Source: Gryllotalpicola protaetiae (lineage in GTDB: Bacteria > Actinomycetota > Actinomycetes > Actinomycetales > Microbacteriaceae). From it: DNA of 64,000 bases. The stretch is taken from positions 1,302,001-1,366,000 of the forward strand of contig NZ_CP032624.1 of NCBI RefSeq assembly GCF_003627055.1, in the 5' to 3' direction. The first letter of the stretch is position 1. Each line of letters starts with the position of its first letter. Below are positions 2,201 through 64,000 of the stretch, piece after piece. The translations under genes and the position numbers were made by a program. The notes below the pieces were generated by a model that saw only the letters and a program-made list of their open reading frames with translations, was not told the DNA's origin and did no database searches.

Positions 2201-4080
<1,880 letters not shown>

Positions 4081-20717: not shown

Positions 20718-22805
20718 CTACTCGGCGGTGCCGTTCGCGAGGTCGGCGAGCAGCACATCGCCGGGACGCACCTCCGACCACTCCGCGGTGATCTCGGCGC
20801 GCTCGAGCAGGCCCTCGATGCGGCGCGTGCGGCCGCGCGACGTGAGCATCACGACCGTGCCCGTCTTCCCGGCGCGGCCAGTGCGGCCCGAGCGGTGCAG
20901 GTAGGTCTTGTACTCGTCGGGCGCGTCCGCCTGGATCACGAGATCGATGTCATCGACGTGGATGCCGCGGGCGGCGACGTCCGTCGCGACCAGAACATTC
21001 ACACGGCCCTTCGTGAGCTTCTCGAGGTTGCGCGTGCGCTTGGCCTGGTTGAGGTCGCCGTGCAGAGCGACGGCCGCGATGCCTTCGTCCTCGAGGCCGT
21101 TCGCGACGTCCTCCGCGTAGCTGCGCGTGCGCGTGAAGACCAGCGTCTTCCCGCCGCGGTCGACGAGCTCGCGGATGACCTCGAGCTTCTCGCGGTGGTC
21201 GATGACGAGCACACGGTGCTCGATGGTGCCCGAGGCCTGGTCCTCGCCGGCGACCTCGTGAACGGCCGGGTCGATCAGGAACTCGTTGACGAGCGCCGCC
21301 ACACCGGTGTCGAGGGTCGCAGAGAAGAGCAGCTTCTGGCCGCCGTCGGCCGTGTGGCGCAGGATCGTCTGCACCGGCTCGAGGAAGCCGAGGTCGCACA
21401 TGTGGTCCGCCTCGTCGAGCACCGTCACACGCACCTCGGAGAGGTCGAGGCGGCCCTGCTCGAGAAGATCGAGGATGCGACCGGGGGTGCCGATGACGAT
21501 GTCGACGCCGCGCTCGAGCGCGACGACCTGCGAGCGCTGCGGAACGCCGCCGTAGATCTGGGTCGTGAAGAGGCCGACGGAGCGGGCGATCGGCTGCACC
21601 GTGCGGTCGATCTGCAGAGCGAGCTCGCGCGTCGGCGCGAGGATCAACGCGCGAGGCGCGCGACCGAACTGGCGCTTGCTGCGCTTGCCCGACTGGATCT
21701 CCGCCGAGCCTGAACGCAGCAGCCCCTCGACCACGGGCGCGCCGAAGGCGATGGTCTTGCCGGAGCCGGTGCGCCCGCGGCCGAGCACGTCGCGGCCGGC
21801 GAGCACGTCGGGGATCGTCGCCGCCTGGATCGGGAACGGGCTCTCGGCGCCCATGTCGCCCAGTGCGCGCACGATGCCCTGGCCGAGGCCGAGATCTGCG
21901 AAGGTCGTGCCCTCGACGTCGCCGGCCTGGGTCGCCTGGGCGGTCAGACGCTCGAGCACGACGTCGTCCTGCGGGGTGAACGAAGCCTTCTTCTGGGCGT
22001 CGCCATAGAAGTCGGAGGTGCGGCTGTCGCGACGCGGACGGTCGCTCTGCTCGAAGCGGCGCGGGCTGCGGTCGTCACGGTCGAAATGACGCGGGCGGTC
22101 GGTGCGGTCGCGCTCGAAGCGGTTGGAGCGTTCGAAGCGGCGCTCACCGCGGTCGAAGCGCTCGTTGTTCTCGAAGCGGCGGGCGGGGCGCTGGTCGCCG
22201 TCGAAACGGCGCGCGGGACGATCGGTGCGATCGAAATCACGAGCCGGGCGATCGCTGCGGTCGAAGCTGCGCGCAGGGCGGTCATCCCGATCGAAACGGC
22301 GCGGAGCGCGGTCGTCCCGATCGAAGCTGCGCGCGGGCCGGTCGTCCCGATCGAAGCTGCGCGCGGGCCGGTCGTCAGAACGGCGCGGTGCGCGGTCATC
22401 GCGGCCGAAACGACGCGAGCCGCGGTCGTCCCGATCGAAGCCACGCGCGGGGCGGTCGTCGAAGCTGCGCGGCGCACGCTCGTCGCGGTCGCGACGCTCG
22501 GGGTTCGCGCGGTCGAAGCGGCGCTCACCCCGATTGTGCTCGCGCTCGCGGTCGAAACGATCGAGCCGTTCGAAGCGCTGCGGGCGGTCGGACTCGCGAC
22601 GGTCGGCCGAGTGGCCGCGCGCAACGCGCGTCTCGGACGACCAGCGGGTCTTCTTCTGCGGGGCATCCGACTCGGACTCGGGCTTGTACCCGCGGTGGCC
22701 GGGGCTGCGCGAGCCGGGCTTCGGCTTCTTGGCACGCGAATAGGAGGAATTCGGCTCGAAGTTCTTGGGCGCGCGGCTGCCACCGCGCTTCTCGTTCTTG
22801 GGCAT
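20718..22805 (-). CDS. DEAD-box ATP-dependent RNA helicase with Arg/Asp-rich N-terminal repeat
   Basis: 695 aa from the ATG of MPKNEKRGG. Residues about 60-290 are a disordered stretch of roughly 10-residue repeats of the type R-x-F-D-R-D-D-R-P-A. The helicase core follows: Q-motif FADLGLGQGIVRALGDMGAESPFPIQ, motif I GRTGSGKT, PTRELA, DEAD in VLDEADHMCDLGF, SAT in FSATL, and HRSGRTGRAG. It remodels RNA (ribosome assembly or decay, cold adaptation in relatives). In most actinobacterial relatives the basic tail is C-terminal or shorter. The upstream ORF could extend to 22901, but the extension lacks family resemblance. Confidence 0.92.
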   Translation of the reverse strand: MPKNEKRGGSRAPKNFEPNSSYSRAKKPKPGSRSPGHRGYKPESESDAPQKKTRWSSETRVARGHSADRRESDRPQRFERLDRFDREREHNRGERRFDRANPERRDRDERAPRSFDDRPARGFDRDDRGSRRFGRDDRAPRRSDDRPARSFDRDDRPARSFDRDDRAPRRFDRDDRPARSFDRSDRPARDFDRTDRPARRFDGDQRPARRFENNERFDRGERRFERSNRFERDRTDRPRHFDRDDRSPRRFEQSDRPRRDSRTSDFYGDAQKKASFTPQDDVVLERLTAQATQAGDVEGTTFADLGLGQGIVRALGDMGAESPFPIQAATIPDVLAGRDVLGRGRTGSGKTIAFGAPVVEGLLRSGSAEIQSGKRSKRQFGRAPRALILAPTRELALQIDRTVQPIARSVGLFTTQIYGGVPQRSQVVALERGVDIVIGTPGRILDLLEQGRLDLSEVRVTVLDEADHMCDLGFLEPVQTILRHTADGGQKLLFSATLDTGVAALVNEFLIDPAVHEVAGEDQASGTIEHRVLVIDHREKLEVIRELVDRGGKTLVFTRTRSYAEDVANGLEDEGIAAVALHGDLNQAKRTRNLEKLTKGRVNVLVATDVAARGIHVDDIDLVIQADAPDEYKTYLHRSGRTGRAGKTGTVVMLTSRGRTRRIEGLLERAEITAEWSEVRPGDVLLADLANGTAE

Positions 22806-59654: not shown

Positions 59655-60060
59655 GTCGACCCTCGTCGACACGAACGTCCTGGTCGACGTGCTCGGCGCA
59701 GACCCCCAGTGGGGATTCTGGTCGCGGCGAGCTCTGGAATCGGCGATCGAGCGAGGGCCGCTGGTAATCAATCCGATCATCTATGCCGAGGTGTCCGTTC
59801 GCTTCGACTCCATCGAAGGCGTCGAGGCCCAGCTGCCGTCTGACATCTTCATTCGCGAACCCCTGCCGTACTCTGCCGGGTTCCTTGCCGGCAAGGCGTT
59901 CGCTCGCTATCGCGAGGGCGGAGGTGCGCGCTCGTCACCGCTACCGGACTTTTTCATCGGCGCTCACGCCGCTGTGAACGGGCACGCGCTGCTCACGCGC
60001 GACGCGGCTCGCTACCGCACCTATTTCCCACGGGTGAGGATCATCGCCCCTGATCGCTGA
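59644..60060 (+). CDS. vapC: PIN-domain ribonuclease toxin
   Basis: 138 aa. PIN fold with the acidic residues expected: LVDTNVLVDVLGAD, YAEVSVRF (Glu), LPDFFIGAHAAVNGHALLTRDAARYRTYFPRV (two Asp). Mg-dependent RNase of the VapC group, neutralised by the upstream AbrB-type protein. It starts inside the antitoxin gene. A complete, apparently intact type II module. Confidence 0.94.
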   Translation: MASESTLVDTNVLVDVLGADPQWGFWSRRALESAIERGPLVINPIIYAEVSVRFDSIEGVEAQLPSDIFIREPLPYSAGFLAGKAFARYREGGGARSSPLPDFFIGAHAAVNGHALLTRDAARYRTYFPRVRIIAPDR

Positions 60061-60077
60061 ACTGAGACGATGGCACC

Positions 60078-61424
60078 GTGACCAAAAAGCTCGTACTCGG
60101 CGCCTTCGAAGAGTTCACGCCCAGCTTCATCTCGAACGCCTGGCCGCACCCGGCGAGCGACCCCGGCGATTTCGCCTCGCTGGAGTGGTGGCAGCGGTTC
60201 GCCCGCGAGATCGAGGCGGGCGGCTTCGACTTCCTGTTCTTCGCCGACGCGCTCGGCTACCCGATGACCACGGGTGCCGACGGACAGATTCGGATTCCTG
60301 ATGCCGTCGTCCGCGAAGCGGTGCAGTTCCCCGTGCACGACCCGCTGTCGCTGGTGCCGGCGCTCGCGGCATCCGTCGATCGTCTCGGCTTCGTCGTGAC
60401 CGCCTCGACCACGTCGGAGCAGCCGTATCTGCTCGCGCGCCGTTTCGCGACCCTCGACCACCTGACGTCGGGGCGCATCGGCTGGAACATCGTCACGAGC
60501 GACAACCAGCAGGCGCTCGTGAAGCTGCTCGGCCTCGGTGACGTGACCCCGCACGACCGGCGGTACGACCGCGCCGACGAGTTCGTCGACCTCGCCCTGC
60601 GACTGTGGGAGGAGGGCTGGGCCGACGACGCGCTCGTCGTCGACAAGGCGTCGCGCACCTTCACCGACCCGGCGAAAGTGCGGCGAATCACGCACGACGG
60701 CGAGTTCTTCCGGCTCGACGGGCTGTTCCCCGTGACGCCGTCGCCCCAGCGCACGCCGACGCTCTTCCAGGCGGGCACCTCGCCGCGCGGGCTGGACTTC
60801 GCATCGCGGGTGGCCGAGGTGGTGTTCATCCAGGAGCGCGACCTCGAGCGTGCGGCGGCGGTCGTGCGCGGCATCCGCGACCGGTCCGAGGCGCGCGGCC
60901 GCGGGCGCGACGGCATCAAGGTGGTGTCGTCGATCTCGGTCGTGTCGGCTCCGGCATCGGACGAGGCCGCCGAGTTGCGCGCGTCGCTCACCGCGGCGCC
61001 GAGTCGCGACGCGGTGGCCGCGCTGTTCCTCGGCTGGTCAGGGCTCGACCTGACCGGCCTCGATCCCGAGACGCCGATCGACGGGCTCACGACCGAGGTC
61101 GGGCAGACGACGCTGGCCTCCTTCCAGGGGGCGGGGAAGTCGGTGGGACAGGTGCTCGACGAGCTGGCTGCGGGCATCGGCGGTACGAAGGTCACCGGCT
61201 CGTTCGACGAAGCGGCGGCCGAGATCGAGCGGATCGCCGAGATCACCGACGTCGACGGATTCCTGATCGAGCACAGCTTCGGCGGCCTGGCCAGCTACCG
61301 CGACTTCATGACAGAGGTCATGCCGCGTCTGCGCTCGCGCGGGCTGCTACCGGAATCCTCGCGCGGCGGCACGCTGCGCGAGCGCCTCACCGGCGCCGGT
61401 CCGCGGCGAGCGCGGGCCGAGTGA
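60078..61424 (+). CDS. NtaA/SnaA/DszA-family FMNH2-dependent monooxygenase
   Basis: 448 aa luciferase-like barrel. Family motifs FLFFADALGYPM, SEQPYLLARRFATLDHLTSGRIGWNIVTSDNQQA, RYDRADEFVDLALRLWEEGW, PSPQRTPTLFQAGTSPRGLDFASRVAEVVF. Uses reduced FMN from a separate reductase to oxygenate a substrate (nitrilotriacetate, sulfones or similar in relatives). GTG 60078 is 17 bp after vapC. No flavin reductase is adjacent. Confidence 0.92.
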   Translation: MTKKLVLGAFEEFTPSFISNAWPHPASDPGDFASLEWWQRFAREIEAGGFDFLFFADALGYPMTTGADGQIRIPDAVVREAVQFPVHDPLSLVPALAASVDRLGFVVTASTTSEQPYLLARRFATLDHLTSGRIGWNIVTSDNQQALVKLLGLGDVTPHDRRYDRADEFVDLALRLWEEGWADDALVVDKASRTFTDPAKVRRITHDGEFFRLDGLFPVTPSPQRTPTLFQAGTSPRGLDFASRVAEVVFIQERDLERAAAVVRGIRDRSEARGRGRDGIKVVSSISVVSAPASDEAAELRASLTAAPSRDAVAALFLGWSGLDLTGLDPETPIDGLTTEVGQTTLASFQGAGKSVGQVLDELAAGIGGTKVTGSFDEAAAEIERIAEITDVDGFLIEHSFGGLASYRDFMTEVMPRLRSRGLLPESSRGGTLRERLTGAGPRRARAE

Positions 61425-61440
61425 GTCTGGTGCCGCAGCG

Positions 61441-61564
61441 GGTCGTCACTTTGTCACAGAAAGGACTTGTTCGAACTGACTTTTCGACGACTCGCGCGCG
61501 CCCGACCCGGCCGGTCGTCAGTAAGTCACCGAAGTTTGCGCGAGAGGCGAACTTGGTGACGACC
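61441..61564. repeat. Composite inverted/direct repeat in convergent gap, variant G
   Basis: GGTCGTCAC (61441-61449) and GTGACGACC (61556-61564) are outer arms. A second GGTCGTCA at 61513-61520 begins a ~23-nt direct copy of the left end (both continue as GTCAC-x-GAA), and an inverted weaker copy (TTCGACGAC) lies at 61483-61491. Thus four related words in alternating orientation occupy the gap between the monooxygenase and HAD genes. Confidence 0.6.
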
Positions 61565-61586
61565 GGGTGCCGCGCGCGAGGGCCGT

Positions 61587-62480
61587 TCAGGCGAGGCCGA
61601 GCTTCTCGACCCAGTAGCGCAGGAAGATCGCGCCGGCCTCGTCGTGCACGGCGGCGCCCTCGGTGATCACGGGGTAGGGCTTCTCGAGCACGCCGTCCGA
61701 CGGCCGCACATCCACATGCGCGGTCTCGTACCCCGACCCGTGCAGGAAGTCGGCCATCTTGTAGTCGCTGCGCGAGTCGCCGACCGAGCGCCAGCGGTGC
61801 GGCAGCTCGCCGGCCGCGGCGAAGTACTCGAGGGCGCGCTGCGCGCCACGGTCCTTGTCGAGCAGCACCGACTCGATGTCGGTCGAGATGATCGTCGAGT
61901 CGAGCCGGAAGGTCACGCTCCCGTTCACGTCAGGTGCGACCCGCTCGCGGTGATAGACGCCGATGCCGTGGTCGACGAGCACATCGAAAGCGGCACGGTC
62001 GAAGTGGCTCTGCGCCTTGAGATAGACGGATGCCTCCACCTCATGGTTCTGCTCGACCGAGATCATCGCCCGCTTGGTCTCGTCGAAGAACATGGTGTCG
62101 GCGAAGCGGTCGCGCACCAGCATCCGGATGTCAGAGATCAGCGAATCGGACGGCGCGACCGACTCGTCGACCGTAACCGGCGCCATGCCGCCCGGGGTGA
62201 TCGCGGCCCAGGCGCCGCCCTTCTCGAAGACGCCGAACATGCGGGCGCCCGGCCGCTGCAGTGCGTCGGCGAGGCCGTGCGCGAGCAGCTTCTGCACGAC
62301 CTGCTGCTCGATGAACTCGGAGCTGCGGCCCGTGATGAAGGCGACAGGAACGCCCGCGCCGACGAGGGTCACGAGGTCGTCGGCGATGGAGGGGATGGCG
62401 ATGGATCGGGTGACGGGCGAGGCGATCGGTCCGTCGACGTCGAGGAGAAGTCCGAGATCGGGCACGGTCCATTCTCGCAA
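61587..62480 (-). CDS. HAD-superfamily hydrolase
   Basis: 297 aa from TTG 62480 (GTG 62465 is an equally possible start). HAD motif I is LLLDVDGPIASP (DxDG), motif II FITGRSSEF, motif III Lys in LLDKDRGAQRALEYFA, motif IV GDSRSDYKMADFL: a Cof/MPGP-like phosphatase with a type C2 cap. Substrate is probably a phosphosugar (inference from class). Its 5' end faces the CACTG/CAGTG array, the nearest word being 35 bp from TTG 62480. Confidence 0.82.
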   Translation of the reverse strand: MREWTVPDLGLLLDVDGPIASPVTRSIAIPSIADDLVTLVGAGVPVAFITGRSSEFIEQQVVQKLLAHGLADALQRPGARMFGVFEKGGAWAAITPGGMAPVTVDESVAPSDSLISDIRMLVRDRFADTMFFDETKRAMISVEQNHEVEASVYLKAQSHFDRAAFDVLVDHGIGVYHRERVAPDVNGSVTFRLDSTIISTDIESVLLDKDRGAQRALEYFAAAGELPHRWRSVGDSRSDYKMADFLHGSGYETAHVDVRPSDGVLEKPYPVITEGAAVHDEAGAIFLRYWVEKLGLA

Positions 62481-62514
62481 GACGCGGGTGGGCGCTTTTC
62501 CACAGGGTGAGCGT

Positions 62515-62594
62515 CACTGCGCCATCGTCACTGCAGTGCTCACTACAGTGCACTGCAGTGAGCACTGCAGTGCGACTGCACTGCGACTGCACTG
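62515..62594. repeat. CACTG/CAGTG array, distal block of ~11-bp dyads
   Basis: After an isolated TCACTGC at 62514, six 10-bp dyads start at 62529, 62541, 62551, 62563, 62574 and 62585. Three are the perfect palindrome CACTGCAGTG, one is CACTACAGTG, two are GACTGCACTG. Spacing is 10-12 bp, about one helical turn, so all lie on one face of the DNA. Confidence 0.92.
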
Positions 62595-62598
62595 CGTG

Positions 62599-62735
62599 TC
62601 AGTCATCGTCAGTGATGACCGTCAGTGATCATCAGTGATTCGCGTCACTGAAGTGCAGTCATCCGATCAGTGATGTTGAGTGACGGTGGTCACTGAGGTT
62701 CACTGATCGCCGTCAGTTGCCTTCACTGACCGACA
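62599..62735. repeat. CACTG/CAGTG array, proximal block of six 23-bp units
   Basis: Units start at 62599, 62622, 62645, 62667, 62690 and 62713 (lengths 23, 23, 22, 23, 23, 23). Each holds two words of type TCASTGA, 10 bp apart, with the next unit 13 (once 12) bp further. Words begin at 62600, 62610, 62623, 62633, 62646, 62656, 62668, 62678, 62691, 62701, 62714 and 62724; eight of the twelve are exact CACTG/CAGTG. The last unit runs into the RBS of the AlbA_2 gene. Confidence 0.92.
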
Positions 62736-62746
62736 AGGGAGTACCG

Positions 62747-64000
62747 ATGGAGACGAGCCAGGGCCCACTCGATGAGGTCGTGGCTCGGTTGCGCCGTGCG
62801 GGCACCGACCTCACCCAGGTCGAGGTCAAGGCAGCCGCCTTCGGCGTTCCCCGCAGTCTGTGGCCGACCATCAGCTCGTTCAGTAATCGCGACGGTGGGC
62901 TCGTGATCCTCGGACTCGACGAAACGAACGGCTTCGAGCCCGCCGCGGGATTCGATGCGACCAAGGTGCGAGACGCCGTTGCCGAGGCTTTCCGCCCGCG
63001 CTCGGCCCGGGACATCCCGGGGCCACTGACGCCGAGCCCGAGTGGTGTCATCGACATCGCAGATGTCGACGGCGCACCTGTCGTCGTCGTGGACGTCGAG
63101 GAACTGCCCGCCGATCAGCGCCCGTGCTACGTCACGACCCAGGGCATCGAGAACGGCAGCTATCAGCGGGTGGCAGACGGCGATCGCGTGATGGGGCGGT
63201 ACGGCGTCTTCCTCCTGCGGGCGGATGCTGCGCAGCCCAACATCGACGTCGATCCCGTTGACGGAGCCACGAGCGATGATCTGGACGGCGAGCTTGTGGC
63301 TCAGTTCATCGCGCGACTGCGGCGCGTCCGTCCGCGGGCAGTCGCCGGTCTCACGACGGATCTCGATGTGCTCGAACGACTGCGGGTGGTCTCGGGGGAC
63401 CACGTCACGCCGACGCTCGCAGGACTGCTTGCGTTCGGCGCGTACCCGCAGCACTTCTTCCCCCAGGCGATGATCACGCTCAACGTCTATGCGGGGCTCA
63501 CCAAGGACTCGAGCGTTGGCGACGTGCGCATGCTGGACCGAAAGGTGCTCGAGGGGCCGATCCCGATCATGGTCGACGACGCCGTTCGAGCAGTCCTCGC
63601 GAACCTGCAGCATCGGCGGGTCAGCCGGGGCGGCGGGGCGGGCGCGGCCGATGAGCCCGAGATTCCGGTGGATGCCTTGCGTGAAGCCATCGTGAACGCG
63701 GTCACTCACCGTGACTACAGTGCGATGGCGCTCGGCGATCAGGTTCGGCTCGAGCTCTATCCGGACCGGCTCGAGATCCACAACCCCGGCGGCATCTGGG
63801 GTGGTCGCCGGGTCGCCGAACTGTTCGACGGCAGCTCGCGGTCCCGGAACGCCCGACTGGCGACACTGCTCACGGACATCCCGCTGCCGGGCACCGATTA
63901 CACCGTCTCGGAGAACGCCGGCAGTGGCATCCCTCGCATGACCGGTGCCCTCGGGCGCGCTGGTCTGGCCGCACCGCGATTCGATGCCACGCTGACCGGC
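62747..64000 (+). CDS. AlbA_2 (Schlafen-type) ATP-binding protein, 3' end outside window
   Basis: 418 codons visible, still open at the window end. N-terminal AlbA_2/divergent AAA_4 domain (residues 15-130): TQVEVKAAAFGVPRSLWPTISSFSNRDGGLVILGLDE, the usual E-x-K...ISAFANxxGG-x-L-x-x-G-V-D pattern. C-terminal HATPase_c_4-type region: IPVDALREAIVNAVTHRDYSA...LEIHNPGGIWGG...SENAGSGIPRM. Such proteins are annotated as putative transcriptional regulators or ATP-binding proteins; some Schlafen-domain proteins act in RNA cleavage or phage defence. ATG 62747 follows AAGGGAG (62735-62741). The long repeat array directly upstream suggests autoregulation. Confidence 0.87.
   Translation, partial: METSQGPLDEVVARLRRAGTDLTQVEVKAAAFGVPRSLWPTISSFSNRDGGLVILGLDETNGFEPAAGFDATKVRDAVAEAFRPRSARDIPGPLTPSPSGVIDIADVDGAPVVVVDVEELPADQRPCYVTTQGIENGSYQRVADGDRVMGRYGVFLLRADAAQPNIDVDPVDGATSDDLDGELVAQFIARLRRVRPRAVAGLTTDLDVLERLRVVSGDHVTPTLAGLLAFGAYPQHFFPQAMITLNVYAGLTKDSSVGDVRMLDRKVLEGPIPIMVDDAVRAVLANLQHRRVSRGGGAGAADEPEIPVDALREAIVNAVTHRDYSAMALGDQVRLELYPDRLEIHNPGGIWGGRRVAELFDGSSRSRNARLATLLTDIPLPGTDYTVSENAGSGIPRMTGALGRAGLAAPRFDATLTG

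Follow-up and report, generated by a model that had tools for sequence, protein, structure and literature searches.

The window, by which we mean the whole 64,000-nucleotide stretch of DNA analysed here, ends within a gene for a 592-residue protein, and a dense array of CACTG/CAGTG words lies directly in front of that gene. The features of the locus are as follows.

62515 to 62594, no strand assigned: distal block, a lone CACTG at 62515 followed by six 10-bp dyads
62599 to 62615, no strand assigned: proximal unit 1, two TCASTGA-like words 10 bp apart, the first imperfect
62622 to 62638, no strand assigned: proximal unit 2, TCAGTGATCATCAGTGA
62645 to 62661, no strand assigned: proximal unit 3, second word imperfect
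62667 to 62683, no strand assigned: proximal unit 4, second word imperfect, 22 bp after unit 3
62690 to 62706, no strand assigned: proximal unit 5, TCACTGAGGTTCACTGA
62713 to 62729, no strand assigned: proximal unit 6, first word imperfect
62735 to 62741, forward strand: putative ribosome-binding site, RBS-like AAGGGAG, as read from the sequence
62747 to 64000, forward strand, continuing past the window: gene for the 592-residue protein with SLFN_AlbA_2, HATPase_c_4 and C-terminal winged-helix domains (full span L003:2748-4526)
62816 to 63193, forward strand: SLFN_AlbA_2 domain, residues 24-149 (Pfam)
63734 to 64000, forward strand, end beyond the window: HATPase_c_4 domain, residues 330-423 (Pfam)
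L003:4341-4520, forward strand, outside the window: C-terminal winged helix, residues about 532-591 (HTH_IclR match and structure model)

The array holds 18 exact CACTG/CAGTG words in 215 bp (62515-62728), the number an earlier note on this DNA had counted, out of 82 in the 64-kb window; the 64 words outside the array amount to about 0.2 per 215 bp, and the second-densest 215-bp stretch, at 63718, has three. In the proximal block six pairs of TCASTGA-like words start, one-mismatch words included, at 62600/62610, 62623/62633, 62646/62656, 62668/62678, 62691/62701 and 62714/62724, so that the members of each pair lie exactly 10 bp apart with gaps of 13, 13, 12, 13 and 13 bp between pairs, which is the 10/13-bp layout with a single 12 described before. 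The distal block, from 62529 to 62594, consists of 10-bp CACTG-CAGTG dyads every 10-12 bp, three of the six with a mismatch, and is the only part reported by Tandem Repeats Finder (62530-62596). The array stops just 5' of the RBS-like AAGGGAG, with the ATG following at 62747, in line with the statement that it ends at the RBS. The remark that no -35/-10 elements are recognisable inside it agrees with a simple consensus scan of 62300-62800, a type of scan that misses other promoter types, in which neither a sigma-70-like promoter nor a terminator was found. Elsewhere, the window holds at 22158-22500 imperfect tandem repeats whose periods are 30, 60 and 84 bp.

A DNA search of the 3.68-Mb genome returned the array together with its own inverted part and nothing else, and the pattern TCASTGANNNTCASTGA occurs in this genome only at the two perfect units of the array. 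Nine of 299 family genomes contain TCASTGANNNTCASTGA, and its reversed control pattern matches in three. Three of the nine have their matches at an AlbA_2/HATPase gene, and the other six carry single sites away from such a gene; since five of these six genomes lack a family gene at this gene family's threshold of E<=1e-10, while the sixth (G615) has a divergent one elsewhere, we take the six sites as background. One of them lies before what is presumably rpsB and one at a presumed citrate-synthase-like gene. At about position 1501 of L059, three CAGTGA words 10-11 bp apart stand at the start of a putative citrate-synthase-like gene in a genome with no family gene at E<=1e-10, probably by chance.

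The encoded protein matches SLFN_AlbA_2 with 27.4 bits over its first 417 residues and 26.6 bits at full length (Pfam cut-off 25.3), HATPase_c_4 with 67.6 bits (cut-off 26) and HTH_IclR with 24.2 bits (cut-off 22); two orthologues scanned alongside (L006 and L007) gave no HTH match above the cut-off. An AlphaFold2 model of the 592 residues has a mean pLDDT of 71.9 and a pTM of 0.47. The modelled winged helix at 532-591, with block pLDDT values of 82-91, comprises helices 532-544, 549-556 and 560-572 and strands 576-578 and 588-591. In an alignment of 96 family members the acidic residues D/E21 (96/96), E26 (96/96) and E59 (93/96) are kept, which may correspond to the SLFN13/Schlafen RNase triad, as are the ATPase residues E313, N317, G348 and G394 (96/96 each). 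By its domains the protein belongs with the bacterial Schlafens, or COG2865-like AlbA_2 proteins, and is a putative RNase. DIP2311 of Corynebacterium diphtheriae (PDB 3LMM) is the top Foldseek match (E 2.6e-13), followed by the N-terminal domain in 2KYY and, more weakly, by Schlafen N-terminal domains. The same two entries are the sole matches at E<=0.01 in a PDB sequence search; both are only about 17-19% identical to the protein in the Foldseek alignment, and their titles name no DNA target. Against PADLOC the protein gives weak matches, over its middle and ATPase parts, to pAgo and SIR2-Argonaute models. Bacterial Schlafens near BREX loci, as described in the available text of PMC12839542 (which cites the preprint 10.1101/2025.07.24.666596), combine a Schlafen RNase with a minimal histidine-kinase-type ATPase and a wHTH. 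Pfam and the model give the same domain order here, with the acidic and ATPase residues kept. The available portion of PMC12839542 treats those proteins as effectors and makes no mention of operator arrays. The clade studied here shows no clear defence island among the neighbour ORFs scanned.

The gene sits on a 3.65-Mb contig with a HAD-like gene and purL as neighbours, the latter starting 36 bp after its stop (L003:4526-4563), and in the window's genome gene and purL may be co-transcribed. Within the stretches fetched for 15 loci, purL is found in seven, from several genera (the window's own and L012, L013, L014, L015, L018 and L025). No ParA/ParB-type family is among the listed families (25 of 31 and 25 of 27) of 74 neighbour proteins from the 15 loci. 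The option of a plasmid or partition-like site, left open by the earlier note, finds no support in the 3.65-Mb contig, in purL nearby in 7/15 loci or in these neighbours. The defence scan covered 74 of the 101 script-listed neighbour ORFs of the same loci (PADLOC, E<=1e-15). DpdF/BrxH models matched two proteins, a type I specificity subunit was hit once, and PsyrT, mad3 and C3a193 gave single matches. The DpdF/BrxH matches are probably two DEAD-box helicases in Pfam terms, one of them RecQ-like (RQC, RecQ_Zn_bind and HRDC domains, once each). As no clear island emerged among these 74 ORFs, we rejected a defence-island reading for the window's clade.

The same class of words was found in front of the gene in close relatives. 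One scan of named genomes gave 14 relative loci with protein identities of 46-84%, from Gryllotalpicola, Agromyces, three Cryobacterium, Arenivirga, Homoserinibacter, Isoptericola, two Cellulosimicrobium, Xylanimicrobium, Microcella and two MAGs, and all 14 carry WCASTGA-type words 5' of the start codon. By our array score, the excess of repeated 6-mers in 140-bp windows expressed as z against dinucleotide shuffles, 14 of the 15 upstream windows (that of the window's own gene included) exceed z = 3, the remaining one reaching 2.8. Homologues without an array alongside unrelated loci with one, the outcome named beforehand as speaking against a link to this gene, are not what was found: the array is present in 14/14, and stray TCASTGANNNTCASTGA matches are single sites in 6/299 genomes. 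Number and spacing of the words vary. The 10/13 spacing is kept in the nearest relative, L012, and other relatives use 9/12, 10/10, 10/12, 11/11 or 21 bp, so that 10/13 holds for the present array and fails as a fixed signature. Several relatives have five or six words only, and in some the array reaches or overlaps the start codon. L013 has, upstream of its position 4001, a tandem (CAGTG)n run within the array, and from this run it appears that arrays may grow by repeat expansion.

Spacing was further analysed over 25 loci picked as having the CASTG word class. Among these, 130 of 201 adjacent distances measure 9-13 bp and a further 23 measure 21-23 bp; when all distances of at most 70 bp are taken together, 10.5 bp is the strongest of the periods tried (8 to 14). 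C stands at the centre of the word in 96 cases and G in 127. We read the word as TCASTGA, a nearly palindromic 7-mer whose middle position is neutral, as suits a DNA dyad with a neutral axis. The AlbA_2 domains of Schlafens are active on RNA, and TCASTGA words are able to pair with each other, so one may ask whether the words act as 5'-leader hairpins bound by the AlbA_2 domain. We regard this as very improbable. When the central C/G was shuffled within the arrays the mean folding-energy z was -0.22 (24 of 25 arrays, one being without spread; six below -1 and three above 1), so that folding energies were unchanged on average and the hairpin reading found no support; the 10.5-bp phasing points to DNA, and 60000-64000 contains no match to an Rfam family. 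That the array is a simple-repeat expansion with no function, as the look of the distal block and the (CAGTG)n run of L013 could suggest, is a reading to which we give almost no credence, given that 14 relatives retain both the class of word and its position despite differing word number and spacing and that other subfamilies carry arrays of other words.

These other arrays came to light in wider samples. In an order-level sample, 76 of 396 genomes have an AlbA_2-ATPase-winged-helix relative at E<=1e-40. In a first set of 96 loci, called the order set below, 64 upstream windows exceed z = 3 (32 fail), compared with 61 of the 1467 windows taken elsewhere in these loci, and the upstream window ranks first within its locus in 59 of 96, where about six are expected. 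An earlier score based on raw counts gave 64/98 above z = 3, but only 34/98 beat every control window of their locus. The second set comprises 51 loci, all but one from class and phylum searches and including L124 of the window's own family; here 32 upstream windows exceed z = 3 and 19 fail, against 24 of 795 controls. Control windows upstream of neighbouring ORFs pass in 7/86 cases and intergenic ones in 4/42. The words of the subfamilies, read by eye, include TTAAGTGGTAAG, CATGTAG, CTATGAGATAG, CACTCTAGAGTG, AAATGTAACC, TAGCATGCTA and GACAACTTA. L027 and L028 (copies of L016 and L021) and L125, L126 and L148 were dropped as copies, near-identical loci such as L074/L076 and L091/L093 were retained, and ten of 93 order-search matches (partial or duplicate) and two second-set matches were left out. 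Relatives were also found in two plasmid records (E<=1e-20) and 16 phage records (E<=1e-10). Repeated words or a dyad, seen by eye and unscored, stand directly 5' of the start codon in Gordonia phage Eviarto gp38 (L178), Mycobacterium phage Squirty gp31 (L179) and an Acetoanaerobium plasmid (L180). By eye, too, L160, L165 and L180, from two phyla, have alike C-terminal ends (MT-PD-P-SK-like) and alike upstream words, TTGTACTTTT and TTGTATAAAA.

We then compared words with proteins. Words are shared by 4-9% of pairs below 35% protein identity and by 72-83% of pairs above 50%. Same-genome paralogues have a word similarity of at most 0.052 in 13/13 pairs from nine genomes in the first set and of at most 0.1 in 18/20 pairs from nine genomes in the second; the remaining two pairs score 0.149 and, between close relatives, 0.166. 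Against the background in the same identity range (26-44%), in which 323 of 3994 first-set pairs exceed 0.1, the divergence of paralogues in their words is no more than protein distance alone predicts. Words tend to follow the protein lineage and not the genome, which does not appear to set the word, and the use of different words by paralogues speaks against a genome-wide or common host factor. In a quick version of the core-protein tree the CASTG-word loci form nearly one clade (fewest label changes, four), and for this reason they are not independent, shared ancestry explaining much of the association. The exceptions inside the clade are L032/L033 and the subclade L048, L050, L086 and L087, which has other recognition helices and other words, though L048 passes the word threshold.

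These comparisons bear on a reading in which the array is bound by another regulator, encoded elsewhere in the genome, that controls the Schlafen gene. Defence operons can be controlled by a separate regulator, CapK/CapS being an example in the part of the literature available to us. We nonetheless consider such a regulator quite unlikely here: same-genome paralogues differ in their words (31 of 33 pairs at or below 0.1), the word accompanies the gene from genus to genus despite differing neighbours and co-varies with the protein, and an external factor would need to be inherited and to change together with each gene. From this pattern the encoded protein is most likely the reader of the words. 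The earlier suggestion that the array is a site for the encoded AlbA_2/HATPase protein is in this respect borne out by the arrays of relatives and by word-protein covariation; the C-terminal winged helix had gone unnamed in it.

As to which domain reads the words, in a four-domain regression the C-terminal part outweighed the other three domains in 98.5% of the bootstraps over loci for pairs at 35-65% identity, in 97.5% at 40-65% and in 80% at 25-65%, the effect being concentrated in residues 526-592. At a core similarity of 0.35-0.5 word sharing climbs through 8%, 33%, 62% and 83% with rising similarity of the last 100 residues (n = 367, 369, 61 and 6), all eight pairs with core and tail both at 0.25-0.35 share words, and the tail weight was reached by none of 300 label permutations. 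With local-alignment scores HATPase comes second (0.15-0.22 versus 0.21-0.31 for the tail). A different word measure separates the domains less well, HATPase and tail weighing 0.181/0.184, 0.191/0.184 and 0.166/0.170 in the order set (k = 6, 7 and 8), while in the second set AlbA_2 outweighs the tail at k = 6 (0.245/0.125) and roughly matches it at k = 7 and 8; by this measure 0 to 7 of 200 permutations reached the tail weight beside the whole core. With the first measure the second set shows a small tail effect (0.10; 4 of 500 permutations as high), and at core 0.5-0.75 there is no clear rise with the tail (0/16, 21% of 14, 17% of 12 and 12.5% of 8), words being common to one of the eight pairs with core 0.5-0.75 and tail 0.4-0.7. 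A recognition-helix motif, framed after reading the same sequences so that its counts are descriptive only, coincides with the word in 25 first-set loci, with two having the word only, none the motif only and 69 neither; the second-set counts are 0, 1, 0 and 50. The winged helix is the likeliest of the domains to read the words, being the best predictor by the first measure and a less clear one by others. The domain weights obtained with the other word measure and the paralogue background are the reasons that we hold our confidence in the main reading at probable.

That main reading is that the array is probably a private self-operator of a bacterial Schlafen gene, read by the gene's own product and holding down its transcription. 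The words, one or two helical turns apart and on about one face of the DNA, would be read by the encoded protein, most likely via its C-terminal winged helix; several copies would bind next to one another, from the upstream region as far as the start codon, and, once bound, hold down transcription of their own gene. Repression would end when the ATPase domain undergoes a nucleotide-dependent change or when the protein is lost. Cooperativity, the ATP switch and the RNase activity of the protein are parts of this scheme that we infer. Repression fits those relatives in which the array extends up to or over the start codon, and preferring it over activation is a guess, since no promoter was recognised. 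The encoded protein could also bind the array to another end, be it activation, titration or storage, or the holding of an RNase effector in an inactive state until infection. Up to 18 words exceed the need of a simple repressor, the acidic residues of AlbA_2 and the ATPase motifs are conserved, and Schlafens of the same domain make-up occur with BREX loci (PMC12839542, in its available text); set against the short arrays of several relatives and against arrays at or over the start codon, which repression predicts, we deem this unlikely. A further extension, a family-wide and diversifying lock-and-key in which private arrays matched to their own winged helix would, besides acting as operators, dock an RNase effector multimer in an inactive form at its own gene, to be released by infection or a change in ATP, we hold to be rather doubtful.

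In the open-access papers that were searchable we found no description of operator arrays for the AlbA_2-ATPase-winged-helix family and nothing on the control of its genes. We know of no long phased word arrays for WYL-domain regulators, and the AbiEi antitoxin is not known to carry an ATPase or an RNase in its own chain and has few repeats. AbiEi represses its own promoter via several inverted repeats (PMC7319586, available text), as proposed here for the Schlafen, but belongs to a two-gene toxin-antitoxin system, unlike the single-chain Schlafen here. WYL-domain defence regulators, transcriptional regulators tied to phage-defence genes in what is accessible of PMC9122601, are encoded by a separate regulator gene of another family, unlike the encoded Schlafen. 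COG2865 or Schlafen domains have been noted near toxin-antitoxin and abortive-infection genes (PMC7641849 and PMC3710099, in the parts available).

AlbA_2-ATPase-winged-helix proteins are common (76/396 order genomes) and were recently connected to phage defence (PMC12839542, available text). Should every such gene have an operator matched to its product, the targets of many family members on DNA would be readable straight from sequence, and the family would offer a large natural set of protein/word pairs from which to derive a recognition code for winged helices and to build orthogonal switches for laboratory strains. Were the lock-and-key extension true as well, the many private words would keep paralogues in one cell from cross-talk.
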